In this document: one piece after another, positions 2,690 to 23,431 of the stretch | Layout of the letters: every line of letters starts with the position of its first letter | How positions within the stretch are numbered: position 1 is the stretch's first letter | Source: a virus | Length of the DNA stretch: 23,533 bases | Direction: 5' to 3' (one strand) | IMG/VR virus record: IMGVR_UViG_3300044635_000988 | Span: 1 to 23,533 of that record | Notes under the pieces: generated by a model | Database searches by the model: none | Seen by the model: the letters and a program-made list of their open reading frames with translations, nothing else | What the model was told of the DNA's origin: nothing | Made by a program: the position numbers and the translations under genes

Positions 2690-5107
2690 TTAGTCCAGAG
2701 GTGCCAGCACGCAGCGGCAGTTGATGGTCTCTTCGGGCGCACCTTGCGGGTCGTTCGGGAACCGCAGGTTCGGCGCGAACGCCTCGCCGGGCTTCCGAAT
2801 CTCGCCGTCGAGTGCGAGATGCGAAGGACGAGTGGTGGCATCGTTCGACGACACCCACTGGATCTTCGTGACTCCCGCGCTCTCGTACTCTTGGAACGCC
2901 GCGCTGTTATACGCCTTGCCAGTCTCTGTGCGCGCGATCGTGAGCGCACGCGATTCCTTCGACCCAAAGACCGAGGCCAAGTCTTCGTCGAGCTCGGGCA
3001 ACACCTCGTTCATGCTGCTGGCGATCTCGCTCGTGGTCGTCGGAGAGCTCAGGGTGACCATCATCTTGTCGCGGATCTCGGCGGCTAGCCGCGAGTTCAC
3101 GCCCTCGACGATCTGCGCGCGCTGCTCCGCGATCATGCGCACGATGCGCGGGTCGGTGACTTCTAGCTGCACGCCACCGATGAGCTCGGCGGTATCGGCC
3201 AAGCCGTCACGCCAAGTCGCCGTGATGTTCGCCGAGATGAGCTCGTCGAGTTGACGCTCCCACTCCTCCTTGTTCAGCAGGAGGTACAGCTCAACATCGC
3301 GCTCAGTCCACGCCTTCGTGGTGATCGACTTCTGAGCCGTCGGGCCAGCCTCCGCGAACTCACGCAGCTTGGCCTTTTGCGCGCGCTCGTAACGGCGGAA
3401 CCAAGTCAGGACATCCGCGGCCAGCCGACGCTCGGCTGCATCCAGCGTCTTCTTGTAGATCGACTCCGCGAACGCGATGCGCTCCTCACGCGTATCGAAT
3501 CGCTTGGACGCGTGGCTCTTCGTGGCCTCGGCCACGGGCTGCATCGTCGCCGAAGCACCGCCGAGGATCTGGTTCGCTTGGGCGATCGAGATGCTCGGGA
3601 ACGCCGCGTTGATAAGGGCCGCACCGCTGGACTGCGATAGCGAGCCCTGAGCCACTTGAGTGATGATCAGGAGCAGCGACTCGACCTGTGCGCCGTTCAA
3701 GCCAGCCGATGCAGCAGGAGCCGCCGTAGACGGTTCCTCGGTCGGCGCGGTCGGTGCCGCCGGCACGACGGTCTGAGGCTGGACGCTCGTGTCTTCGCCT
3801 GTGTTCGTGTCGTTGACCGCGAACACTTGGTTGCTCATCGGCGTGAACACCGTGTTGGCCGACTCGACGGTCTCAACTTCAAGGCCCAGCATCTTGGCCG
3901 AGTCATTGAAGCTCAAGCCCACGCCATAGGCCGCGAGCTCCGCAGCCAACTTGAACTTGGCCGAGTGGTCTTCTTGCAGCGCGGTGATGCCTGAGAAGTC
4001 GAAGCTGATGTAACAGCCGGCGAGCCGCGGGTCTTCGAGGCGCGACAACAGGTGGCTGTTGATCTTCTCGGCCACGCTGTCGAGGTAGCCCTTCACGCCT
4101 TGCCAGAACTGGCGGTACGCCTCGGTGACATTGTTGTAGGTCGCCGTGTCGTAGTTGCCGATGACCGGCGGCGGCACCTGAAGGATCGAGCACACCGTAT
4201 CGCGCACCCAGTTGAGGGTCTCGCGCTGCATCATGTCCTTCGGGGTCGCGGGGTTCGGGACAATGTTCACCTTGCCCGTCACGACCTTGAAGCCGCCGAC
4301 CACATCGGGATCCTTGACGGCCTCGTTCACGGACTCTTGGAGGCGGTACTCCTCCTCGTTGCTCATCCCGTCTTCGTAGTTCAGGAACGCGCCGGGGCCA
4401 CCGCCACGCATCACGGCTTCTTGGTACCGCTCGGCTTGGAAGCCGACCGAGATCACACGGAGTGCGGCCTCAAGAGGCGAGAGCCCGCGCATCGGGTCGC
4501 CGGGGTTGTAGTCGTAGAAGTGAACCGTCGAGGCAACTGGGAAGGTCGGCGGCACCGCGCCGTTCGCTGCGTACTGCACCGCGGTGATGCGGCCCGTGTA
4601 TTGGTCGCGTGCGTCCTCGACGATGTCACCGATCACGGGCACGATGACTGTCGGCAGCGGGATCGGTGCCCGAGCATCCACGCTCGGGGAGATCGGCTTG
4701 CCTTCAGAGTCCATCAGGAACCACCAGTCCTCACCGCTCAACTTGCGGTGCGTCATGCCGGCGGCCAGCAGATCAGGCAGACCCATGTCGGGGTTCGGCA
4801 TCTCGAACAGCTTGCGAATCGGGTGCTCTTCGCCGACCTCTTGCGCGTCCTCGTCGGTCGATTCCCAGATGCTCATCGGCACCTGACGCACGGCTTCGGT
4901 CAACGCCTGCACGCACGCGTACACGACCCACGAATCCGACAACGGATCCTCGACCTCGTCACGCCCGCCGGGTGTGCTACGCGCGAGGCCGATCTGGCGA
5001 AGCAACGAGTCCATCGACTTCCCGATGCCCGTGATCTCGACCTTCTCAAAGGTGAGGCCAGTGCCGGGCATACGCTTGAACGGAGACGGTCTACGCTTGC
5101 TGCTCAC
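2690..5107 (-). CDS. Portal protein fused to MuF-like C-terminal domain
   Basis: Residues about 30-430 match the HK97-type portal family (Phage_portal). Visible blocks include DSWVVYACVQALTEAVRQVP, VHFYDYNPGDPMRGLSPLEA and the ILQVPPPVIGNYDTATYNN segment. The portal forms the dodecameric ring through which DNA enters the head. A Pro/Ala/Thr-rich linker (about 430-520) leads to a C-terminal phage Mu protein F-like domain with TIARTETGKAYNSA, RPSHLALDGE and PEETINCRC, the usual MuF signature. In most phages these are two genes. I chose the GTG at 5107 because GAGAGG lies 9 bases before it; the ATG at 5116 has that GAGAGG directly abutting it, which is a poor spacing. The gene sits downstream of terminase and upstream of the protease, as expected for a head module. 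Confidence 0.9.
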   Translation of the reverse strand: MSSKRRPSPFKRMPGTGLTFEKVEITGIGKSMDSLLRQIGLARSTPGGRDEVEDPLSDSWVVYACVQALTEAVRQVPMSIWESTDEDAQEVGEEHPIRKLFEMPNPDMGLPDLLAAGMTHRKLSGEDWWFLMDSEGKPISPSVDARAPIPLPTVIVPVIGDIVEDARDQYTGRITAVQYAANGAVPPTFPVASTVHFYDYNPGDPMRGLSPLEAALRVISVGFQAERYQEAVMRGGGPGAFLNYEDGMSNEEEYRLQESVNEAVKDPDVVGGFKVVTGKVNIVPNPATPKDMMQRETLNWVRDTVCSILQVPPPVIGNYDTATYNNVTEAYRQFWQGVKGYLDSVAEKINSHLLSRLEDPRLAGCYISFDFSGITALQEDHSAKFKLAAELAAYGVGLSFNDSAKMLGLEVETVESANTVFTPMSNQVFAVNDTNTGEDTSVQPQTVVPAAPTAPTEEPSTAAPAASAGLNGAQVESLLLIITQVAQGSLSQSSGAALINAAFPSISIAQANQILGGASATMQPVAEATKSHASKRFDTREERIAFAESIYKKTLDAAERRLAADVLTWFRRYERAQKAKLREFAEAGPTAQKSITTKAWTERDVELYLLLNKEEWERQLDELISANITATWRDGLADTAELIGGVQLEVTDPRIVRMIAEQRAQIVEGVNSRLAAEIRDKMMVTLSSPTTTSEIASSMNEVLPELDEDLASVFGSKESRALTIARTETGKAYNSAAFQEYESAGVTKIQWVSSNDATTRPSHLALDGEIRKPGEAFAPNLRFPNDPQGAPEETINCRCVLAPLD

Positions 5108-11717: not shown

Positions 11718-11738
11718 GCTTTAGCTCCTTGGTCGGTC
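11718..11738 (-). promoter_or_regulatory. Start-associated leader of helicase gene
   Basis: On the minus strand the helicase GTG is preceded by GACCGACCAAGGAG and a 7-base spacer. This is the only complete copy seen on the minus strand of the leader family found before the plus-strand small genes at 17839-21376. Confidence 0.7.
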
Positions 11739-11792
11739 TTCGATTGTTCACACCCCGAGAGGGTCACACTAGGTGGGAAGTAGATATCCCCC

Positions 11793-14115: not shown

Positions 14116-14877
14116 TCACTCGTCGTCGCCGTCGTTGCCAGAGACCACGCCGCCAGTGCGCGCGAACGCAGCGGCCACGATGGCATCGGACAGCACCGCG
14201 TTCAGCGCGGATGCGGCAGCGAGTTCCTCGGTGGTCAGGGCACGCACGAAGGAGAAGGTGATCTCAGAGTAGGGCTGGCCCGCCTTGTTCTGCACCTTCT
14301 TGAGCGTGAGCTTGGACACGACCGTGTTCACCGTGTGGCCCGAGTTCATGAGGATCATGCAGTACTGGGTAAACGCCTTCTTGGATGAGCGCGGGATCTT
14401 CAACAAGTTCGGCACGCGATTCTGCCCGATGAAGCAGTAGACCTCGCCGAACTCCTTGCAGTCAGCACCCTTGCCGCCCTTGCGATCGCTGCCCATCTTC
14501 GACCACGGGCACAGCAAGCAGTTGTGCACGCCTTCGCCGTCAGGCGAGCCTGACTCGATGTTGTTGCCGATGCCGTTGCGGCCATCGAGCGAGGAGCAGT
14601 CGGGCGCGGTGCCGAGCGCACCGTCGGTCTGGCGGTACCAGTTGCGCATCGTCATGCGCTGGGCCGCGATCACGCAGTCGATCTCCTTCAGCGACTCCTC
14701 ACCCTGTAGGCCACCTTCGACCGAGAAGACCGTCATGCCGGCGGGCGGCACCTTGATCTTCGGCAGTTGGTGCAGCGCGAGGCCAGCATCGAAGACTGAC
14801 TTGACGGCGACGGCGGCTTGAGGTTGAGCGAGGATGGCGAAGGAGGATGCGTTCTTGTTCGTGAGTTCTTTGGACAT
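14116..14877 (-). CDS. Cys-rich phage protein of replication module, function unknown
   Basis: A 253-residue protein with a putative zinc site: C94 (PDCSSLDG), C120 and C123 (HNCLLCPW), C140 and C148 (GKGADCKEFGEVYC). The pattern CSSxDG ... CxxCPW ... GKGxxCK occurs in a recurrent group of phage proteins encoded near recombination and replication genes. I do not know an established function. The N-terminus is low-complexity and Ala-rich, the middle carries the Cys block, and the C-terminus has strands (SEITFSFVRAL) then an Ala-rich helix. A single-strand DNA-binding role would fit the context but is inference. Its leader (CCAACAACCAGAACC, C/A-rich, without AAGGAG) resembles that of the plus-strand gene at 18563. 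Confidence 0.78.
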   Translation of the reverse strand: MSKELTNKNASSFAILAQPQAAVAVKSVFDAGLALHQLPKIKVPPAGMTVFSVEGGLQGEESLKEIDCVIAAQRMTMRNWYRQTDGALGTAPDCSSLDGRNGIGNNIESGSPDGEGVHNCLLCPWSKMGSDRKGGKGADCKEFGEVYCFIGQNRVPNLLKIPRSSKKAFTQYCMILMNSGHTVNTVVSKLTLKKVQNKAGQPYSEITFSFVRALTTEELAAASALNAVLSDAIVAAAFARTGGVVSGNDGDDE

Positions 14878-14913: not shown

Positions 14914-15390
14914 TTACTTCTTGAGATTCCGTGCGGCTCGCTTCGAGACCGACTCGGCCTTCGATGCTTTGACCGCGCGGAGTTCGGTCTTGGTGAAGAT
15001 GTTGAGAAGCGGTGCCATCTCTTCAGGCACTTCTCCACCGTCAGCGAGGAGCTCGCGGACATGGGCTTGCAGAGTCTGGGAGGAGACTTGCTCCTTGACC
15101 ATCCACGCGAAGTCGCACTTCTTGGCTGCATCGACCAGTGCTTCGGTGGTCACGCCCTCGTTGCGCCACACGACCAGAGGCTGGGCCATGTGAACATTGA
15201 AGGTCTGGCCGTCAACTGTGAGCGGCACGGAGTCGATGCCGGCGGTTGCGAGCTCCGTGATGATGACATCGGCGAGAGCGTCGCGGTGCTTCTTGAGTTC
15301 CTCCAAGGCTTCCTCGGCCTTGGCGATCTCGTTCTTGATGCGCACGAACTGGCGCATGGGTTCGACGAATGAGTTGAGAGACTCGGTCAT
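14914..15390 (-). CDS. Coiled-coil phage protein of replication module
   Basis: A 158-residue protein starting in an ATGA overlap with the SNF2-like helicase stop, so translation is probably coupled. The N-terminal third (about 8-45, VRIKNEIAKAEEALEELKKH) is a clear coiled coil. It is followed by a small beta region (VPLTVDGQTFNVHMAQPLVV) and a helical block containing CDFAWMVKEQVSSQTLQAHV. The C-terminus is very basic. I recognise the layout (coiled coil, strand pair, WMV block) from uncharacterised phage proteins near recombination genes but cannot assign a function. The nearby helicase and Cys-rich protein are its likely partners. Confidence 0.75.
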   Translation of the reverse strand: MTESLNSFVEPMRQFVRIKNEIAKAEEALEELKKHRDALADVIITELATAGIDSVPLTVDGQTFNVHMAQPLVVWRNEGVTTEALVDAAKKCDFAWMVKEQVSSQTLQAHVRELLADGGEVPEEMAPLLNIFTKTELRAVKASKAESVSKRAARNLKK

Positions 15391-17092: not shown

Positions 17093-17550
17093 TACGCGCC
17101 GGCCTTCTTCTGGATGTTGGCGATCTCGGACTCAAGCTGCTCAATGAAGCGCGTGACGATGTCGTCGCGGACATTGTCGCGGAGCTTGGCTTCAGCAGCC
17201 GAGGCTTCACGCGTGGGCTCGATGAGTCGATCGACGGTGACACCGTACACGGCACCGATGACGCGTGCCTGTTCGAGCGACGGGCGAATGAGCGAACGCT
17301 CCAGCGAGTACAGTGTGCCGATCGACAAGCCCACGCCGGCTTGGCGCAGGAGCGCGAGCATCTCCTCGCCCGACAGGCCGCGAGTGTTTCGCGCGACGCG
17401 CAACAGGTCACCGTAGATCTTCACCCCGGCATCGGCACCGACATTGGGCCTGCCGACCTTGAAGGTGAGCTCGGGCCGCGTGAAGCTGAAGCCGTGCACT
17501 TCGCCCTCTTTCGTGGAGTCGGGTGTGGTGGGTGTGTTTTGGTTGGTCAT
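17092..17550 (-). CDS. XRE-type helix-turn-helix regulator
   Basis: A 152-residue protein with a helix-turn-helix domain of the Cro/cI (XRE) type at about 46-110: IYGDLLRVARNTRGLSGEEM, then GLSIGTLYSLERSLIRPSLEQARVI, then a third helix YGVTVDRLI. There is no LexA-like peptidase region; the C-terminus is a short acidic helix. It stands at the head of the leftward operon beside the divergent control region, the usual position of a phage repressor or switch protein. The ATG at 17550 has no Shine-Dalgarno. A GTG at 17499 with GAGG upstream is an alternative start, giving 135 residues. A leaderless transcript is also possible, since a TATAGA box lies only a few bases before the ATG. Confidence 0.82.
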   Translation of the reverse strand: MTNQNTPTTPDSTKEGEVHGFSFTRPELTFKVGRPNVGADAGVKIYGDLLRVARNTRGLSGEEMLALLRQAGVGLSIGTLYSLERSLIRPSLEQARVIGAVYGVTVDRLIEPTREASAAEAKLRDNVRDDIVTRFIEQLESEIANIQKKAGA

Positions 17551-17590
17551 GGATTCTATATAGGCTCTGGTCTGGGCTCGCCCGCAGCAT

Positions 17591-17605
17591 CAGGCACCGT
17601 GCCTG
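17591..17605. promoter_or_regulatory. Candidate operator palindrome
   Basis: CAGGCACCGTGCCTG has perfect 7-bp arms around one central base. It lies 41 bases upstream of the regulator's start codon, a typical place for an autoregulatory operator. The link to the helix-turn-helix protein is inference. Confidence 0.5.
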
Positions 17606-17769
17606 TCGTGCGTTCGAGTGGGGGAGTGATAGCCCTCCAGCCGTCCAGACTTCTACCGTCAATCTGCGACAACCTAGCAGGCATTCGCTCTAAGTCCTTA
17701 TTTTCTCGGCACTTATGACCGCCAAGATTTTGAGAGATTTTCCTTTACTTCTGGGGGCCGATGGGCGAA

Positions 17770-17779
17770 TCTATATAGG
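17770..17779 (+). promoter_or_regulatory. Possible -10 element of rightward operon (TCTATATAGG)
   Basis: It is identical in sequence and direction to 17555-17564 next to the regulator start. The core CTATATAG is palindromic, so it could serve either strand. It lies about 60 bases upstream of the first rightward start codon. No canonical -35 was found. Confidence 0.4.
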
Positions 17780-17800
17780 TCGCAGCAAGGAGCTGGCGAC

Positions 17801-17838
17801 GCGACCGACCAACCAACCGAACCAAGGAGACCAAGACC
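17801..17838 (+). promoter_or_regulatory. Start-associated leader 1
   Basis: GACCGACCAACCAACCGAA is followed by CCAAGGAG (AAGGAG at 17824-17829) and a 9-base spacer ACCAAGACC before ATG. It is the prototype of the leader family. It is almost free of T and G outside the Shine-Dalgarno, so the mRNA should be unstructured. Confidence 0.75.
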
Positions 17839-18126
17839 ATGAAGACCAACAAGAACACCCAGAAGATCGTGACCGTCGGCGATGTCCGCCGTGAGAAGGC
17901 CCTGTACTGGGAGGGCGTGTTCGCCCGCGAAGACGCTGCTGCGGTCAACCAGAACAAGCCGCACGCGACCGACCTGCACCCGGCGATCGGCACGATCAAC
18001 CGCTGGGACGGCGAAGGCAATCCCTTCTACTACATCATCGTCAAGGATGAAGTCATGGAAGTCACGCAGGTGATTGAGAGCACAAGCATCGAGTCCCTCA
18101 TGGGCTTGATTAACGAGACCGCCTGA
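17839..18126 (+). CDS. Small early protein, function unknown
   Basis: A 95-residue protein, first of the rightward operon. I recognise no family. It has a Lys/Asn-rich start, a helical stretch around DVRREKALYWEGVFAREDAA, and a C-terminal segment with strands (NPFYYIIVKDEVMEVTQVI) followed by a short helix (SIESLMGLINETA). The start is fixed by the conserved leader with AAGGAG 9 bases upstream. Being first behind the divergent control region suggests early, strong expression. Early phage proteins of this size often target host functions, but nothing here identifies a target. Confidence 0.78.
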   Translation: MKTNKNTQKIVTVGDVRREKALYWEGVFAREDAAAVNQNKPHATDLHPAIGTINRWDGEGNPFYYIIVKDEVMEVTQVIESTSIESLMGLINETA

Positions 18127-18165
18127 TCCACCCCGACCAACCTAACGACCAAGGAGACCAAGACC
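18127..18165 (+). promoter_or_regulatory. Start-associated leader 2
   Basis: Directly after the TGA, the stretch CCCGACCAACCTAACGACC leads to AAGGAG (18151-18156) and the same ACCAAGACC spacer as leader 1. Confidence 0.75.
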
Positions 18166-18525
18166 ATGAAGAAGCTAACCAAGGAAACCATCGAGTGCCT
18201 GCACGACCGCTACTCTCAGATCGAGGCCAACATCATCGAGGAGGGCAAGAACTACGGCGAGGAAGCCAAGGCCGAGTGCGCCGCGGGCTGGGCCGACACT
18301 CTGGAGGAACTGGGCGAACTGATCGCCGACCCGACGCAGGAGCTGCTGTCGAAGCTCGATGCAGCAGCCGAAGAACTGGAACTGTACGAGGAAGGCTACA
18401 CGGGCGTGCGTCGTGACCTTCGCGCGGCACGCCGCATCGAGGACAAGCGCGACTGGGACGCCTTCATCGCAGCCGGCGGCGATCCCGACTCGGTGATCAT
18501 CAAGCGAATCAGCTTCGGTGGCTGA
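18166..18525 (+). CDS. Acidic helical small protein, function unknown
   Basis: A 119-residue protein rich in Glu and Asp and predicted to be mostly helical, from KETIECLHDRYSQIEANII through LSKLDAAAEELELYEEGY, ending with a more basic part (VRRDLRAARRIEDKRDWDAF) and DPDSVIIKRISFGG. No family is recognised. The start is fixed by leader 2. The helical, acidic first two thirds could mimic DNA or bind a basic partner, as several anti-host phage proteins do, but this is speculation from composition only. Confidence 0.78.
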   Translation: MKKLTKETIECLHDRYSQIEANIIEEGKNYGEEAKAECAAGWADTLEELGELIADPTQELLSKLDAAAEELELYEEGYTGVRRDLRAARRIEDKRDWDAFIAAGGDPDSVIIKRISFGG

Positions 18526-18562
18526 TCAACCAACCAACAACCAACAACCGAAAGCCAGAACC
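18526..18562 (+). promoter_or_regulatory. Start-associated leader 3, without AAGGAG
   Basis: After the TGA come repeats of ACCAACCAACAACC and CCAGAACC before ATG, but no Shine-Dalgarno core. A similar C/A-rich leader (CCAACAACCAGAACC) precedes the minus-strand gene starting at 14877. Confidence 0.6.
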
Positions 18563-18847
18563 ATGAACACCCCGACCTACCGCGTGCACTTCCAACTCGT
18601 GAACAGCATCCTCCCAGCCAACGGTAACTGCGTGCAGATCCGCTGCCAGTCGCCAGCAGGCACGGCCAGCCGTCGCTCCGTGACGCTCGGCGTCGAGCAA
18701 GCCAACTCAGCCGTGCTGGACGAGTTCGTGAAGCGTGCACGCGCGCTGCGCACCATGCGCCCGTTCACCGTGCGCGAGTCCGCCGAGCTTCTCACCGAGC
18801 TCCTGCAAGCGGTGCGCGAAGATCTCGCCACCGAAGGGAAGGTGTGA
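18563..18847 (+). CDS. Small protein, function unknown
   Basis: A 94-residue protein. The N-terminal half appears to be strands (TYRVHFQLVNSI, NCVQIRCQSPAG, SRRSVTLGV) and the C-terminal half two helices (SAVLDEFVKRARALRTM, ESAELLTELLQAVREDL). I recognise no family. I chose the ATG at 18563 because it follows the CCAGAACC leader end; an ATG at 18518 would lie inside the previous gene. Its stop overlaps the next gene's GTG start by four bases, so the two are probably translated together. Confidence 0.75.
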   Translation: MNTPTYRVHFQLVNSILPANGNCVQIRCQSPAGTASRRSVTLGVEQANSAVLDEFVKRARALRTMRPFTVRESAELLTELLQAVREDLATEGKV

Positions 18848-19578
18848 TCGTGGTCGGTCGCAAGAAGAAGGACATCGAGTATCGAGTGCTGGACATGATC
18901 GCGGCCACGATCTTCGTGACCGAGCAGGACGGCGGGCAGTACATCACGCGCACGCAGGCACGACACGAGGCGCGCGACTGCACGAGCGATCGCGCGTTCG
19001 ACATCATCGCGTACGAGGATGCAACGCCGATCCCAGATGACAAGTTGCTCGGCTTGCTGGATCAGGCACGCGCGGCCATCGCGTGGTGCGCCTCGATGCG
19101 CGTGCGCGAAGTGAAAGACGACGAGGGCTTCACCACGGAGAACAAGTACGAGCGCGAGATCAGAGACCTCGCTCGTGCTGGTGTGTTCAAGACGAAGAGC
19201 GCAGGCCGCGTGTCCTCTATCTGGACTGCGTACCAGCGGCATCTCAACCGCGCGCCACGCCCTGAGTACCTCGACGAGTTCGTGGGCTCCGTCGGCGAGA
19301 AGATCGAGACGACTGCGCACCTGATCAAGAAGACCACGATGCCGACAACGCGCTTCGGCACGACGCTCCGCGTCGAGCTCCGCGACGACGCGGGGCATCT
19401 CTTGGTGTGGTGGTGCAGCGCGCCGGCGCAGTTCTACGGGATCGAGCTTGGCGACCTACTGACCGTGAAGGGCAAAGTCAAGGAGCACAAGGTGTACGGC
19501 TCGACGCACCAGACCATCCTGACCCGCTGCAAGGTGGCCCTGTTGACCGCTGCCGAAGCCCCCCAGACCCCGTCCTAG
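18844..19578 (+). CDS. Protein with C-terminal OB-fold-like nucleic-acid-binding domain
   Basis: A 244-residue protein starting with GTG in a GTGA overlap and a GAAGG ribosome site. The N-terminal two thirds are helical and charged, with no family that I recognise. The C-terminal part (about 165-235) has the pattern of an OB-fold beta barrel: TTLRVELRDDAGHLLVWWCS, then GDLLTVKGKVKEHKVYG, then HQTILTRCKVALL. Such barrels usually bind single-stranded nucleic acid, and the block KGKVKEHKxYxGxxQTxLTRCK recurs in phage proteins of unknown function. It is the largest gene of the first half of the rightward operon and is followed by a gap with a hairpin and a probable new promoter. Confidence 0.75.
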   Translation: MIVVGRKKKDIEYRVLDMIAATIFVTEQDGGQYITRTQARHEARDCTSDRAFDIIAYEDATPIPDDKLLGLLDQARAAIAWCASMRVREVKDDEGFTTENKYEREIRDLARAGVFKTKSAGRVSSIWTAYQRHLNRAPRPEYLDEFVGSVGEKIETTAHLIKKTTMPTTRFGTTLRVELRDDAGHLLVWWCSAPAQFYGIELGDLLTVKGKVKEHKVYGSTHQTILTRCKVALLTAAEAPQTPS

Positions 19579-19593
19579 GCCGTCCCAGACGGC
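19579..19593 (+). terminator. Hairpin directly after stop codon, possible weak terminator
   Basis: GCCGTC and GACGGC form a perfect 6-bp stem with a CCA loop, starting one base after the TAG. There is no T run, so Rho-independent termination is uncertain. It could instead protect the mRNA end. Confidence 0.4.
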
Positions 19594-19666
19594 ATCCAGA
19601 GGGGATTCCTACAAGATTCCAAACGCCGCAAGCCACGCCAGATAAAGGGCTTACGGCAATCGTTCC

Positions 19667-19689
19667 AGAATCCCCCAAGATTCTCTTGG
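19667..19689. promoter_or_regulatory. Two overlapping palindromes, candidate operator
   Basis: AGAATC and GATTCT are arranged around six bases (19667-19684). CCAAGA and TCTTGG are arranged around TTC (19675-19689). The second one covers the start of the promoter candidate's -35 box. Confidence 0.5.
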
Positions 19690-19714
19690 ACTATACCGAG
19701 AGGTGATATATCTT
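19686..19714 (+). promoter_or_regulatory. Candidate sigma70-type promoter
   Basis: TTGGAC (19686-19691) and TATCTT (19709-19714) are separated by 17 bases, about 65 bases upstream of the next start codon. The operator-like palindrome overlaps the -35 box, suggesting repression control. Confidence 0.5.
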
Positions 19715-19738
19715 CTCCACATCGACAGCGCGCCGCTG

Positions 19739-19779
19739 ACGACCGACCAACCAACCGACTGAACCAAGGAGCACAAGCC
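19739..19779 (+). promoter_or_regulatory. Start-associated leader 4
   Basis: GACCGACCAACCAACCGACT is followed by GAACCAAGGAG (AAGGAG at 19766-19771) and an 8-base spacer. It is nearly identical to leader 1, although each stands after a promoter region and not at a gene-gene junction. Confidence 0.75.
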
Positions 19780-20259
19780 ATGAACAACACCACCCACTAC
19801 GAGATGCCGATCCTGACCGCCGACGATCTGCGTGACGCAACCTACATCACGCTCAATGCGATGGTCAACAACCCCGGTCAAGGCGTGCATCCGCTGGAGA
19901 CCGAAGCCGCCCGCGCCGAGCTTGCTCGCCGTGCCGCGACGGCATCTCCCCTCTCTGGTAAAGAGCGCATCTATGTGACTGTCCGCAACACATCGGCCCG
20001 CCTCGTCTTGAGCTCGGATCGCGCCGGATTCGATCTGGACACAAAATGGCAGCGCATCTGGGCCGTGCAGAGGAACAGCAGCGGCAACATCGCAAAGCGT
20101 GCGACCGTTCGTTGCAAAGGCGGCGAGTCGTTCAAGCTCGGCCAGAACGAAGTAGAGGTGATCTACTCAAACGGCAACATCTACTCTGGCTGGGCAACGC
20201 TTACGGTGAACGATGAATCCAACTCCGCGTCGATCCACATCGACCTCTACACTCTCTGA
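19780..20259 (+). CDS. Small beta-rich protein, paralogue of the gene at 20673
   Basis: A 159-residue protein. Residues 1-55 are helical with a segment LETEAARAELARRAATASPL; the rest is beta-rich. Its C-terminal part (a C...E...GQxEVxVxY block, then SIHIDLYTL) matches the spacing and residues of the protein at 20673-21038 (C...E...GQEVVVSY, then SIHLYNL), so the two look like diverged copies. I recognise no family or function. The start is fixed by leader 4 with AAGGAG. It is the first gene of the second rightward unit. Confidence 0.75.
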   Translation: MNNTTHYEMPILTADDLRDATYITLNAMVNNPGQGVHPLETEAARAELARRAATASPLSGKERIYVTVRNTSARLVLSSDRAGFDLDTKWQRIWAVQRNSSGNIAKRATVRCKGGESFKLGQNEVEVIYSNGNIYSGWATLTVNDESNSASIHIDLYTL

Positions 20260-20288
20260 TCACACCGACCGACCAAGGAGCCAAGACA
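20260..20288 (+). promoter_or_regulatory. Start-associated leader 5
   Basis: Directly after the stop (TGATCA junction) comes CACCGACCGACCAAGGAG, with AAGGAG at 20275-20280, then an 8-base spacer. Confidence 0.75.
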
Positions 20289-20633
20289 ATGAACACCACG
20301 ACCAACGAACTGACCGACCGCCAGATCCAACTGGGCGAGATTCTCGCCAGCCTCGGCTACGAGGGTAGCTGGTGGTGCCCGGCCGGCCAAGACATCCAAC
20401 TGTCGGGCCGCGTGTACCTGAACACCACCCGCCGCGACGCCAAGGTCTGGATCAGCTTCTCGAACCCGGCGACCTGCGAAGGCGCAAAGCTGAACATCAA
20501 GGTCAGCAGCTACGACCAACCGCGTGCATGGTGTATCTCGCAAGAAGTTGTGGTCGAGAAGAAGTTCCACAACGCCGGCGCGGCCGCCGCCCGCTTTGCT
20601 GACGGCGAGATGGACTTTGCCGACTTGATGTGA
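20289..20633 (+). CDS. Small protein, function unknown
   Basis: A 114-residue protein. An N-terminal helix (TDRQIQLGEILASLGYEG) is followed by strands (SWWCPAGQDIQLSGRVYLN, AKVWISFSN, GAKLNIKVSSYDQ) and a C-terminal helix (NAGAAAARFADGEMDFADLM). The helix-strands-helix layout resembles its neighbours at 19780 and 20673, and a distant common origin is possible, but I cannot align it with confidence. No known family. The start is fixed by leader 5. Confidence 0.75.
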   Translation: MNTTTNELTDRQIQLGEILASLGYEGSWWCPAGQDIQLSGRVYLNTTRRDAKVWISFSNPATCEGAKLNIKVSSYDQPRAWCISQEVVVEKKFHNAGAAAARFADGEMDFADLM

Positions 20634-20672
20634 TCACGCCGACCACCGACCATCGACCAAGGAGACCAAGCC
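20634..20672 (+). promoter_or_regulatory. Start-associated leader 6
   Basis: A TGATCA junction leads to CGCCGACCACCGACCATCG and then ACCAAGGAG (AAGGAG at 20659-20664) with an 8-base spacer before ATG. Confidence 0.75.
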
Positions 20673-21038
20673 ATGAAGACCTACGAGAAGCCGACCGACA
20701 TCCAAGTGACCAACATCCAAGAGTTGCTGGCTCAGCAACCTCGGTGGAGTGTGAACGCTTACAACCTTGCCAGCCGTCCTACCTTCGGCGGTGAAGCTCG
20801 CCCGATCGTTCGGGAGGGCAAGCTGCAAGTGTGCGCTCGCACCTTCTATCGCAACATGAGCACCCTGCGCCTGTCCTTCGACTGCACGGTGGAGGAGTTG
20901 ATCTCTGGACAAGAGGTGGTGGTGTCCTACAGGTACTCAAGCGGCAAGGGCTACCGCGCCAAGGTCGGATTCCACGCGACGAAGTGGAGCGACGGCACGG
21001 TGAGCGTGAGCATCCACCTGTACAACCTGACCGCCTGA
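20673..21038 (+). CDS. Small beta-rich protein, paralogue of the gene at 19780
   Basis: A 121-residue protein. A short N-terminal helix (VTNIQELLAQQP) precedes a beta-rich body containing KLQVCARTFYRN, RLSFDCTVEELISGQEVVVS and a final strand VSVSIHLYNLTA. The last 60 residues share conserved positions with the protein at 19780-20259. No family is recognised. The start is fixed by leader 6. Tandem paralogues with identical start leaders suggest that leader and gene were duplicated together. Confidence 0.75.
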   Translation: MKTYEKPTDIQVTNIQELLAQQPRWSVNAYNLASRPTFGGEARPIVREGKLQVCARTFYRNMSTLRLSFDCTVEELISGQEVVVSYRYSSGKGYRAKVGFHATKWSDGTVSVSIHLYNLTA

Positions 21039-21063
21039 TCACCCCGACCAAGGAGCCCAGACC
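21039..21063 (+). promoter_or_regulatory. Start-associated leader 7
   Basis: This is the shortest copy. The TGATCA junction is followed by CCCCGACCAAGGAG (AAGGAG at 21050-21055) and an 8-base spacer, showing which part of the leader is the conserved core. Confidence 0.75.
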
Positions 21064-21333
21064 ATGACCACCCAACACTACATCCTGTACACCTCGAAGC
21101 CTGCCGAGGCTCGCGTGGCAACGCGCGAAGAGATCAGCCAGATCTTCGAGGAGCTCATCGCCCAAGACACGCTCGAAGTCTTGGCCGAGGAAGGGCAAGC
21201 TGACGACCTGAGTCTGCTGGCTGAAGTTGCCAGCGACGAAGACAAGGTCTTCAATGTGTACGACCGTGACACCGCGTCACGGATTGTTCATCCTCAGGCA
21301 CAACACCTAGCCCGCCGTCTGGGCTGGGTGTGA
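21064..21333 (+). CDS. Small acidic protein, function unknown
   Basis: An 89-residue acidic protein. A starting strand (HYILYTSKPAEARVA) is followed by a long helix pair (TREEISQIFEELIAQDTLEVL and DDLSLLAEVAS), a strand DKVFNVYDRDTASRIV and a last helix PQAQHLARRLGW. No family is recognised. The start is fixed by leader 7. It is co-directional with and close to its neighbours, and so part of the same early operon. Confidence 0.73.
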   Translation: MTTQHYILYTSKPAEARVATREEISQIFEELIAQDTLEVLAEEGQADDLSLLAEVASDEDKVFNVYDRDTASRIVHPQAQHLARRLGWV

Positions 21334-21375
21334 TTCAACCGACCGACCTATTACCGCAACCGCAGGAGCTACGAC
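21334..21375 (+). promoter_or_regulatory. Start-associated leader 8 (diverged)
   Basis: TGATTC replaces TGATCA, then AACCGACCGACC is retained, but the Shine-Dalgarno is CAGGAG (21363-21368) with a 7-base spacer. It appears to be the last member of the series. Confidence 0.65.
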
Positions 21376-21684
21376 ATGACTCTCTCTCTCAACTCGATCG
21401 ACGCCGTGTTCCTCAAGATGGACGAAGACCCGCTGATGGACGATGTCCCGTATCACATCCGCGAAGCCATCGCTCTCTACATCGTGCACGGCTACTCGCC
21501 GGGCTCGACCACGGCGGCCCTTCTCGCCAACGACTTCGCACGCTTCGTCCAGTGCTGCGATGCGGAGTACGAGAAGAACGCCGTCAATGTGATGCGCTGG
21601 CTGCATCGCAACGCGCCGCCTGACGCGTGCGGCACGCGCAGCAAGGTCTTGAACTGGAGAGGCACCAAGCCCGAGATGATGTGA
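21376..21684 (+). CDS. Small helical protein, function unknown
   Basis: A 102-residue protein that appears largely helical: SIDAVFLKMDED, VPYHIREAIALYIVHGYSPG, then ANDFARFVQCCDAEYEKNAVNVMRWLH. The segment IREAIALYIVHGYSPGSTTAALLANDF is typical of small phage proteins that sit in early operons, but I cannot name a function. The start is fixed by leader 8. Its stop is four bases before the next start, so translation may be coupled. Confidence 0.74.
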   Translation: MTLSLNSIDAVFLKMDEDPLMDDVPYHIREAIALYIVHGYSPGSTTAALLANDFARFVQCCDAEYEKNAVNVMRWLHRNAPPDACGTRSKVLNWRGTKPEMM

Positions 21685-21688
21685 CATC

Positions 21689-22318
21689 ATGCCTCGAAAT
21701 AACAAGTACGAGAACGACAAGCTGGCCTTCGCGGCCAGCTACTCGGCCTTCAAGAAGACCTTGGATGTCGATGGCGACCGTCGTGCTTCTCGGCAGGAAG
21801 TCCAGCGCGTCGAGCGCGAGTTCCGCATCACGATCGGCAAGCTGGGTGTCGATGATCCAGCAGCACCGCTGCGTCTGTCGTACAGGTCACAGGTGCGGGA
21901 GGATGCCGAGACTCTGTGCATCTCGCTGTCGCTGCGCCTGAGCTACCACCCAGACGCCACCTACATCGTGTCGATGTCCGAGCACTCCGACTTCGAGCGC
22001 GAGACCATCCTGCGTGCGTTGACCTCGAAGCCGCAGTTCCTCGTTCGACTGGGCCGCACATCTGGGCTGCTGCACATCAAGCAGAAGCCCGGCTGGATGC
22101 AGGCACACGAGCCGATGCCCGACGAGTCGAGCGATCAAGGAATCCCAGATTCCTGCACCGTGGACTCCGACAAAGTCGGAATCTACTCAAGAGGTGAAGT
22201 CGTCGAAGCCGAAGAACTGGACGACCTGACCATCCACCTACGGCAAAGCGTCGAGGCTCTGATGCTCGCGCTCAAGCCGTTCAAGACCGTACCGACCACA
22301 CAACTGGAGCTCTTCTGA
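21689..22318 (+). CDS. Protein of unknown function
   Basis: A 209-residue protein without recognisable family. The N-terminus is basic (PRNNKYENDKLAF), followed by a helix (SRQEVQRVEREFRI), a probable beta region (LCISLSLRLSYHPDATYIVSM) and a C-terminal helix (LTIHLRQSVEALMLALKPF). It ends with QLELF, which resembles the short QL.LF clamp-binding peptide (QLxLF type) used by many bacterial replication proteins to bind the beta sliding clamp. That is a motif resemblance only. Only a weak ribosome site precedes it. Two palindromes lie inside its coding sequence (22139-22153 and 22163-22184). Confidence 0.72.
   Translation: MPRNNKYENDKLAFAASYSAFKKTLDVDGDRRASRQEVQRVEREFRITIGKLGVDDPAAPLRLSYRSQVREDAETLCISLSLRLSYHPDATYIVSMSEHSDFERETILRALTSKPQFLVRLGRTSGLLHIKQKPGWMQAHEPMPDESSDQGIPDSCTVDSDKVGIYSRGEVVEAEELDDLTIHLRQSVEALMLALKPFKTVPTTQLELF
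22139..22184. repeat. Two palindromes inside a coding region
   Basis: GGAATC and GATTCC flank CCA (22139-22153). TCCGAC and GTCGGA flank AAA, within a longer imperfect arm. They lie about 140 bases before the lysozyme gene. GATTCC also occurs in the regulatory gap at 19603-19620. Confidence 0.4.
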
Positions 22319-22319
22319 C

Positions 22320-22754
22320 ATGAACACCAAGACCAAGCTACTGACTCTCTGCCTGCTTATCATCACCAGCGTGTCGGCCTTCGCGGCTGATCGCGCGATC
22401 GACAAGGACACCCGCCGATTCCTCGACGCGATCCGTCGTGTCGAGACTGGCGGCTTGCCGAACGCCGGCGCGAACGCAGTCGGCGACAAGGGCGCGAGCA
22501 TCGGCCCGTACCAGATCCAGCGTGCATACCACGCTGATGCACGCATGAAGACTGGACGCTACGAGGATTGCTCTACGAGCCACGCCTACAGCGAGCAGAC
22601 CATGCTCGCGTACTTCGCGCGCTACGCTCCGAAGGCGTTGGAGTCGAAGGACTGGGAGACGCTGGCCCGCGTGCACAACGGCGGGCCGAAGGGCCACACA
22701 AAGAAGGCGACGCTCAGCTACTGGGCCAAGGTGCAGAAGGAGATGGCGAAGTGA
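22320..22754 (+). CDS. Secreted i-type (destabilase-like) lysozyme
   Basis: A 144-residue cell-wall hydrolase with a Sec signal peptide: basic TKTK, a hydrophobic core LLTLCLLIITSVSAFA, and likely cleavage after residue 22 or 23. The mature part follows the destabilase/i-type lysozyme pattern: a catalytic glutamate in RRVETGG (E42), an aspartate in GDKGAS (D56), GPYQIQRAYHADA (62-74), and RVHNGGPKG (117-125). Such enzymes cleave the beta-1,4 bond of peptidoglycan. A signal peptide means export through the host Sec system, so lysis timing would not depend only on a holin. It overlaps the next gene by four bases. The membrane protein at 23428 may complete a lysis unit. The family assignment is by motif. 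Confidence 0.8.
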   Translation: MNTKTKLLTLCLLIITSVSAFAADRAIDKDTRRFLDAIRRVETGGLPNAGANAVGDKGASIGPYQIQRAYHADARMKTGRYEDCSTSHAYSEQTMLAYFARYAPKALESKDWETLARVHNGGPKGHTKKATLSYWAKVQKEMAK

Positions 22755-23431
22755 CAAGGCTACTGACCCAGAACGGCGAGCTTCGCAAGCACGGCATCTT
22801 CAACTGGTCGATCCCCGCGCTCGTCGCGCACCTGTCCGACGGCATCAAGGTCGTCACCTGTCCGCACGCTGGAGCGTGCGCGGCGTTGTGCTATGCGAGA
22901 AACGGCACCTACTTGTTCCCGGCAGTAGTCGCCAAGCACACGCGCAATCTTGAACTCGTGCTACGAGATCCCGCTGGCTTCCGATCTCGCATGATCGAGG
23001 AGTGCAACGCCGCACGCATGGCTGGGAAGTATGTCCGCATCCATGACGACGGCGACTTCTTCTCCGACGACTACCTGACCCTGTGGCTCGACATCGCGCG
23101 CAAGTGTCCACAGGTCACCTTCTATGCATACACCAAAGAGGTGAGTCGATTCCGCCGGCTAGTTGAAGGGCACGCGCCCGCGAACTTCTTGTGGGTCTTC
23201 TCAATGGGCGGCAGAGAAGATCACCTCGTTGATCGAGAGCAAGATCGGCACGCGGATGTATTCCCTGATGAGGAGGCCATCGTGGCCGCAGGTTATGTGA
23301 GCCAGTCGGACAACGACTTGCTCTGCGTTCTTTCGCCGAGCAAGAAGATCGGCATCCCGTCGAATAACATCCCGCACTTCAAGAAGCGTCAAGGCAACAA
23401 GACCTTCTCTCAACTTCAGACCAAGCCATGA
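22751..23431 (+). CDS. GP88-family phage protein with Cys cluster
   Basis: A 226-residue protein starting with GTG in a GTGA overlap with the lysozyme gene. It matches the pattern of the GP88 family (named after mycobacteriophage L5 gene product 88): CPHAGACAALCYA (C37, C43, C47), YVRIHDDGDFFSDDYLTLW (94-112) and FYAYTKE (124-130), ending in a GxxSxNIPHFKK segment. The CxxxxxCxxxCYA cluster followed by strand-helix units resembles iron-sulfur enzymes with a TIM-barrel core such as radical SAM proteins, but this is inference and the family has no settled function that I know. It is co-translated with the lysozyme, an unusual partner. Confidence 0.8.
   Translation: MTRLLTQNGELRKHGIFNWSIPALVAHLSDGIKVVTCPHAGACAALCYARNGTYLFPAVVAKHTRNLELVLRDPAGFRSRMIEECNAARMAGKYVRIHDDGDFFSDDYLTLWLDIARKCPQVTFYAYTKEVSRFRRLVEGHAPANFLWVFSMGGREDHLVDREQDRHADVFPDEEAIVAAGYVSQSDNDLLCVLSPSKKIGIPSNNIPHFKKRQGNKTFSQLQTKP

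Follow-up and report, generated by a model that had tools for sequence, protein, structure and literature searches.

Leaders before the small early genes of an uncultivated phage as probable translation-initiation signals and boundaries of exchangeable gene cassettes

Why should a series of small, mutually dissimilar phage genes begin behind the same C/A-rich sequence? The question is raised by a 23.5-kb fragment of an uncultivated phage from a virus collection, the whole of which (23,533 nucleotides) we refer to as the window. Its leftward genes encode a portal and a Mu-F-like head protein, a weakly terminase-like protein, a DNA methylase, UvrD-like and SNF2-like helicases and an HTH repressor-like protein. 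A set of small early genes runs rightward, with its first start at 17839. The original prediction, made from the sequence alone, held that eight rightward genes start behind related leaders, with the gene at 18844 as the exception, and all eight leaders were found where it had placed them.

One leader family precedes the starts at 17839, 18166, 18563, 19780, 20289, 20673, 21064 and 21376, and its layout runs from the TGATC stop of the previous gene through GACC repeats to CCAAGGAG and then, after 8–9 bases, to the ATG. The first leader (17803–17838), which follows a promoter-like region and reads GACCGACC..CCAAGGAGACCAAGACC-ATG, precedes gene A (17839–18126; 95 residues, no family match). Leader 2 (18124–18165) extends from a TGATCC stop to the ATG of gene B (18166–18525; 119 residues), and leader 3 (18523–18562), which is C/A-rich and has no Shine-Dalgarno (SD) sequence, precedes gene C (18563–18847; 94 residues). 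Gene D (18844–19578; 244 residues) has no leader and its start overlaps the preceding gene (GTGATC). Leader 4 (19735–19779) and gene E (19780–20259; 159 residues) are followed by leader 5 (20257–20288) and gene F (20289–20633; 114 residues), leader 6 (20631–20672) and gene G (20673–21038; 121 residues), and leader 7 (21036–21063) and gene H (21064–21333; 89 residues). The series ends with the divergent leader 8 (21331–21375), which opens with TGATTC and carries CGCAGGAG 7 bases before the ATG of gene I (21376–21684; 102 residues). All of these features are on the + strand.

The exact composition is more variable than had been proposed, since the family is common to all eight starts while CCAAGGAG is exact in six, with the ATG 8 or 9 bases on, and tandem GACCGACC is present in four (17839, 19780, 20289 and 21376). 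At least one GACC occurs in every leader except that of 18563. TGATC opens five of the six leaders that directly follow a gene, the remaining one being the TGATTC of leader 8, and the leaders of 17839 and 19780 are preceded by non-coding promoter-like stretches. An SD sequence is present in seven of the eight copies, 7–9 nt from the ATG and in RNA predicted to be unstructured. The predicted 7 to 9 bases to the start codon, the TGATC stop at most leaders and the single SD-less copy (18526–18562) are thus all as described. With up to one mismatch, GACCAAGGAGNNNNA is present at 7 sites in the window although 0.31 would be expected, and no shuffle out of 100 had as many. The range from 17801 to 21375 does contain eight copies, and one more lies outside it: GACCGACCAAGGAGCTAAAGC, an isolated copy on the minus strand at 11718–11741 (including 11720–11734), precedes the UvrD-like helicase gene and is not kept in more distant relatives.

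Relatives of the window were found in IMG/VR. G008 (38 kb) shares 91–94% DNA identity with it, and the G008 sequence begins within gene D and continues round into the window's left part. G003 (43.6 kb) is ~78% identical, G005 and G006 are ~72% identical to the window and ~96% to each other, and G004 ends short of the early region. A megablast search with the complete window found no match among named phages. Searches with the helicase, portal and terminase returned relatives of less than 60% identity only, so we recognized no cultivated relative and assigned no host, and a scan of 84,980 bacterial and archaeal genomes with the helicase and with the portal revealed no relative. When compared with PHROGs, the small early proteins gave no match except for gene D, which matches PHROGs of unknown function, and a marginal match for gene I (E = 0.07).

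The profile HMM was trained on the eight copies of the window, which score 6.6–23 bits, and was run on the relatives with all filters off. The top score in 15 dinucleotide shuffles of G003, G005, G006 and G008 was 6.5 bits. Fourteen matches in these four genomes exceed it and 13 of them stand directly before early-gene starts; the odd one is a minus-strand match at G003 1658, which scores 8.2 bits. A further three early leaders fall at 4.0–6.2 bits (G003 36062, G003 40169 and G006 6916). In pattern scans of all viral contigs, only this phage group had several leader-pattern matches on one contig, other contigs having one or two scattered sites; the broad pattern GACCAAGGAGNCCAAG matched too often to be informative and was dropped. 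The original prediction had named a lack of surplus copies and of GACC conservation as counting against it, and both the copies and their GACC repeats are conserved in the relatives. One G006 leader (L138 7204–7239) contains seven GACC units in a row, which suggests repeat slippage, and the GACC repeats may in part be a product of this process.

To characterize the leaders as translation starts we compared them with other starts that were picked mechanically. The 36 nt before leader starts contain 75% A+C and 5% T, compared to 52% and 16% for other starts, and the mean predicted folding energy from −36 to +18 is −2.9 kcal/mol compared to −12.4 kcal/mol. The eight window leaders have minimum free energies of 0 to −3.8 kcal/mol and all are among the least-folded 0.1–1.6% of window segments. 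The bias continues into the genes: codons 2–6 behind leaders contain 80% A+C and the remaining codons 53%, and N, T, K, Q, P or H account for 69% of the residues encoded by codons 2–6, compared to 21%. Such an unfolded, A/C-rich leader and set of first codons, in a GC-rich genome, is what initiation that is strong or independent of an SD requires. According to a review, no SD is needed for an AUG to define the start when the mRNA is unstructured, and expression is stimulated by CA repeats that follow the start codon (PMC4611024). The gene C homologue has an SD-less leader in G003, like gene C itself, and an SD-bearing one in G005. Base bias and predicted folding thus agree with the unstructured initiation proposed in the original prediction. 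A sigma-70-like promoter scan of the + strand from 17400 to 22800, limited to that promoter type, gave no matches above shuffles, and no inverted repeats of at least 10 bp within 80 bp were found between 17780 and 21400; together with the folding, these searches argue against a sigma-70-like promoter or a terminator in each leader. We also noted that the minus-strand early genes at 14116–14877 and 14914–15390 have A/C-rich, SD-poor starts without GACC repeats, for example CCAACAACCAGAACC...AAACAGAACC-ATG, and that these are partly conserved in the relatives.

One explanation would be that the leaders are ordinary strong ribosome sites, that is, unfolded SD-bearing starts that have converged in a GC-rich genome, and that gene swaps end there through selection for intact genes. 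The bias covers the SD, the spacer and the first codons as initiation predicts, and the two leftward genes are A/C-rich at their starts even without GACC repeats. However, the 25 leaders compared from five phages contain 68 GACC, seven-fold more than composition-matched shuffles (9.6), and upstream of the SD alone the count is still 38 compared to 5.6. In the same phages TGATC is found at 13 of 17 stops before leaders and at 5 of 48 other stops; the leader unit takes in the stop of the preceding gene, whose TGATC is unnecessary for initiation, and the late genes of the window phage manage without such leaders. As neither the GACC order nor the TGATC edge is needed for initiation, the balance tilts towards the leaders being related by shared descent of the leader sequence itself, and we regard convergence of ordinary sites as unlikely.

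The leader is also independent of the gene behind it. Leaders of unrelated genes have a mean identity of 0.70 within genomes and 0.69 between genomes, and those of homologous genes in different phages are no closer (0.70). Shuffled leaders give a mean of 0.53, and the coding sequences behind unrelated leaders (0.54) are at background. The comparison of leader with gene conservation that the original prediction had proposed therefore sets leaders at 70% against genes at 54%. A tandem duplication of gene plus leader, with the genes since diverged beyond recognition, is very improbable from these values, as leader likeness does not follow gene homology and the window early proteins show no significant mutual similarity by blastp, hhalign or shuffled alignment. 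Nevertheless, G008 gene Y weakly resembles G005 gene B (its score exceeds all 1000 shuffles), so that some cassettes are possibly ancient paralogues. Gene E is also weakly similar to G005 gene X, but this was discarded, since no such similarity is seen with the close homologue of X in G008.

Closely related phages differ by whole genes at the leaders. The window and G008 share ~92% DNA identity up to the leader at 19780, the left junction of the exchanged block, where the genes begin to differ: genes E, F and G of the window correspond to two genes, X and Y, in G008, in which gene E is replaced and genes F and G are not at this place. Identity returns at the TGATC stop that opens the gene H leader, the right junction, and gene H itself is 94% identical in amino acid sequence. 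Likewise, G005 and G006 are ~96% identical to the ATG of the first leader and then carry different genes, X and C in one phage and two other genes in the other, with identity returning inside the gene B leader. All four junctions, from two close phage pairs, are thus at leaders. The four junction leaders are 67–79% identical between partners, and the unswapped gene I leader is 92% identical between the window and G008, with flanks at 93%. Gene B of the window is 89% identical to that of G005 over 348 nt beginning within its leader, compared to a mean of 72%, with none above 81%, for 80 backbone segments of that length. The gene order is B-C in the window and G003 and C-B in G005, and gene X lies behind the second promoter-like region in G008 but behind the first in G005. 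In G006, 19 nt of the gap before the gene B leader match the 3′ end of window gene G exactly and look like what is left of a lost cassette. The recombination-boundary role, which the original prediction listed among several, is supported by the two independent pairs and by the transferred gene B. Random recombination with selection for intact genes, as the ordinary-site explanation would have it, would also place junctions at leaders; gaps between genes here are almost all leader, so junction position alone cannot separate guided from random crossover.

Because close relatives have exchanged whole genes at the leaders, the leader probably has two functions, to start translation and to mark a cassette edge. 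Our preferred reading, with a probability of about two in three, is that a strong, unstructured leader for translation initiation also serves as the boundary of exchangeable cassettes of small genes. The initiation role is well supported by the sequence and predicted folding, and the cassette-boundary role is supported by the junction positions in the two close pairs and by the transferred cassette. Each small early gene would then be a self-contained translation unit, in which a 30–45 nt leader runs from the TGATC stop of the previous gene through GACC/ACC repeats and AAGGAG to the ATG. The leader and the A/C-rich first codons would hold the start free of RNA structure, and ribosomes would thereby load well on the GC-rich polycistronic mRNA, mostly via SD pairing and in a few copies via the unfolded stretch alone. 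Translation output from the leaders is probably high, and the SD-less copies are probably used for initiation as well. Since the same leader stands before unrelated genes, each cassette edge would carry 20–40 bp of common sequence, and crossovers there could swap, insert or delete whole genes with reading frames and start signals intact. The breakpoints would be set by the homology of the leaders themselves and not by selection acting on random junctions.

A bolder form of this reading, which we hold as tentative and rather doubtful, is that selection has made the leader a dual-purpose docking site, with GACC repeats kept both as exchange homology and for ribosome loading. It would be a standard connector for plugging small early genes in and out of a shared operon, with part of the family initiating without an SD, and the genes so plugged in would possibly have host-takeover or counter-defence functions.

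Among the closest known elements are the start-associated sequences (SAS) of cluster K mycobacteriophages (Pope et al. 2011, PMC3203893), which the original prediction had cited as an analogy of different sequence, and aptly so. Like SAS, the leaders are a conserved repeat beyond the SD, directly upstream of many unrelated starts, that sometimes includes the upstream stop codon and is kept across phages with different genes behind it. Unlike SAS (GGGATAGGAGCCC, a fixed 13 bp), they consist of GACC..CCAAGGAG..ACC with a variable repeat part, and with up to two mismatches the SAS consensus has one window match (4659–4671; 0.32 expected), which is not at a leader. ESAS elements, 17-bp imperfect inverted repeats upstream of SAS, coincide with putative promoters in Adephagia (PMC11373665). 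The leaders contain no inverted repeats of 10 bp or more and are almost unfolded. That the leader is the binding site of a phage-encoded RNA-binding or translation factor selecting early mRNAs, a similar idea having been voiced for cluster K SAS (PMC3203893; PMC11373665), would fit the conservation of GACC repeats beyond the SD but is highly improbable, as no candidate factor emerged from the proteins searched and the site has no fixed length, with none to seven GACC units. Recruitment of such a factor, the third role that the original prediction had proposed, thus gained no support from the analysis. Microbacterium cluster EF phages have SAS/ESAS-like motifs (PMC7302621), an independent family of unusually conserved ribosome-binding motifs before about ten genes; theirs are GGGAAAGGACCCC and an upstream motif centred on GTAGAG, and the leaders examined contain neither. 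Start-associated repeats are thus known in two actinobacteriophage clusters, where the papers cited here call their role unclear.

Shuffling cassettes with promoter/stem-loop elements are already known. As summarized in PMC4503421, the PeSLs of T4-type phages (Arbiol 2010, Comeau 2014) are promoter-stem-loop cassettes, and HGTV-1 carries similar motifs (PMC3950731). Like PeSLs as described there, the leaders recur as regulatory elements among the small genes of a plastic region, and genes are shuffled at these sites. Unlike them, each with an early promoter and a stem-loop, the leaders show neither, the promoter scan being for the sigma-70-like type. Because the leaders lack the SAS consensus, the ESAS repeats and the PeSL promoter and stem-loop, the family belongs to none of these groups, and by analogy the best reading is that the leader works like a cluster K SAS combined with a T4 PeSL. 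In the cassette reading that we prefer, a translation leader with no detected promoter or hairpin would take the boundary role, with exchanges caught by the close phage pairs. This suggests a testable function for start-associated repeats, in which accessory genes are swapped and the start signal is kept.

Several further features of these phages were observed. A similar KEMxK tail (AAGGAGATGnnnAAGTGA) ends unrelated genes and provides the next gene with its SD and with a GTG start that overlaps the tail (window 22737–22754; L141 3203–3220, 3418–3435 and 4035–4052; L136 5706–5723). Window gp88 is replaced at this tail by two other genes in G008, making the tail a second kind of swap boundary. 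The 209-residue protein encoded at 21689–22318 and its relatives end in QLELF, which resembles the β-sliding-clamp binding motif. The sequence CTATATAGG occurs at 17553–17564 and 17768–17779, flanking the region between the divergent HTH repressor-like gene and the early operon, as a possible promoter or operator pair. Finally, G003 contains a gene that appears HNH-like by eye just upstream of an isolated leader-bearing gene (L136 7568–8056 and 8169–8537), and from this proximity homing endonuclease activity may help to insert cassettes.
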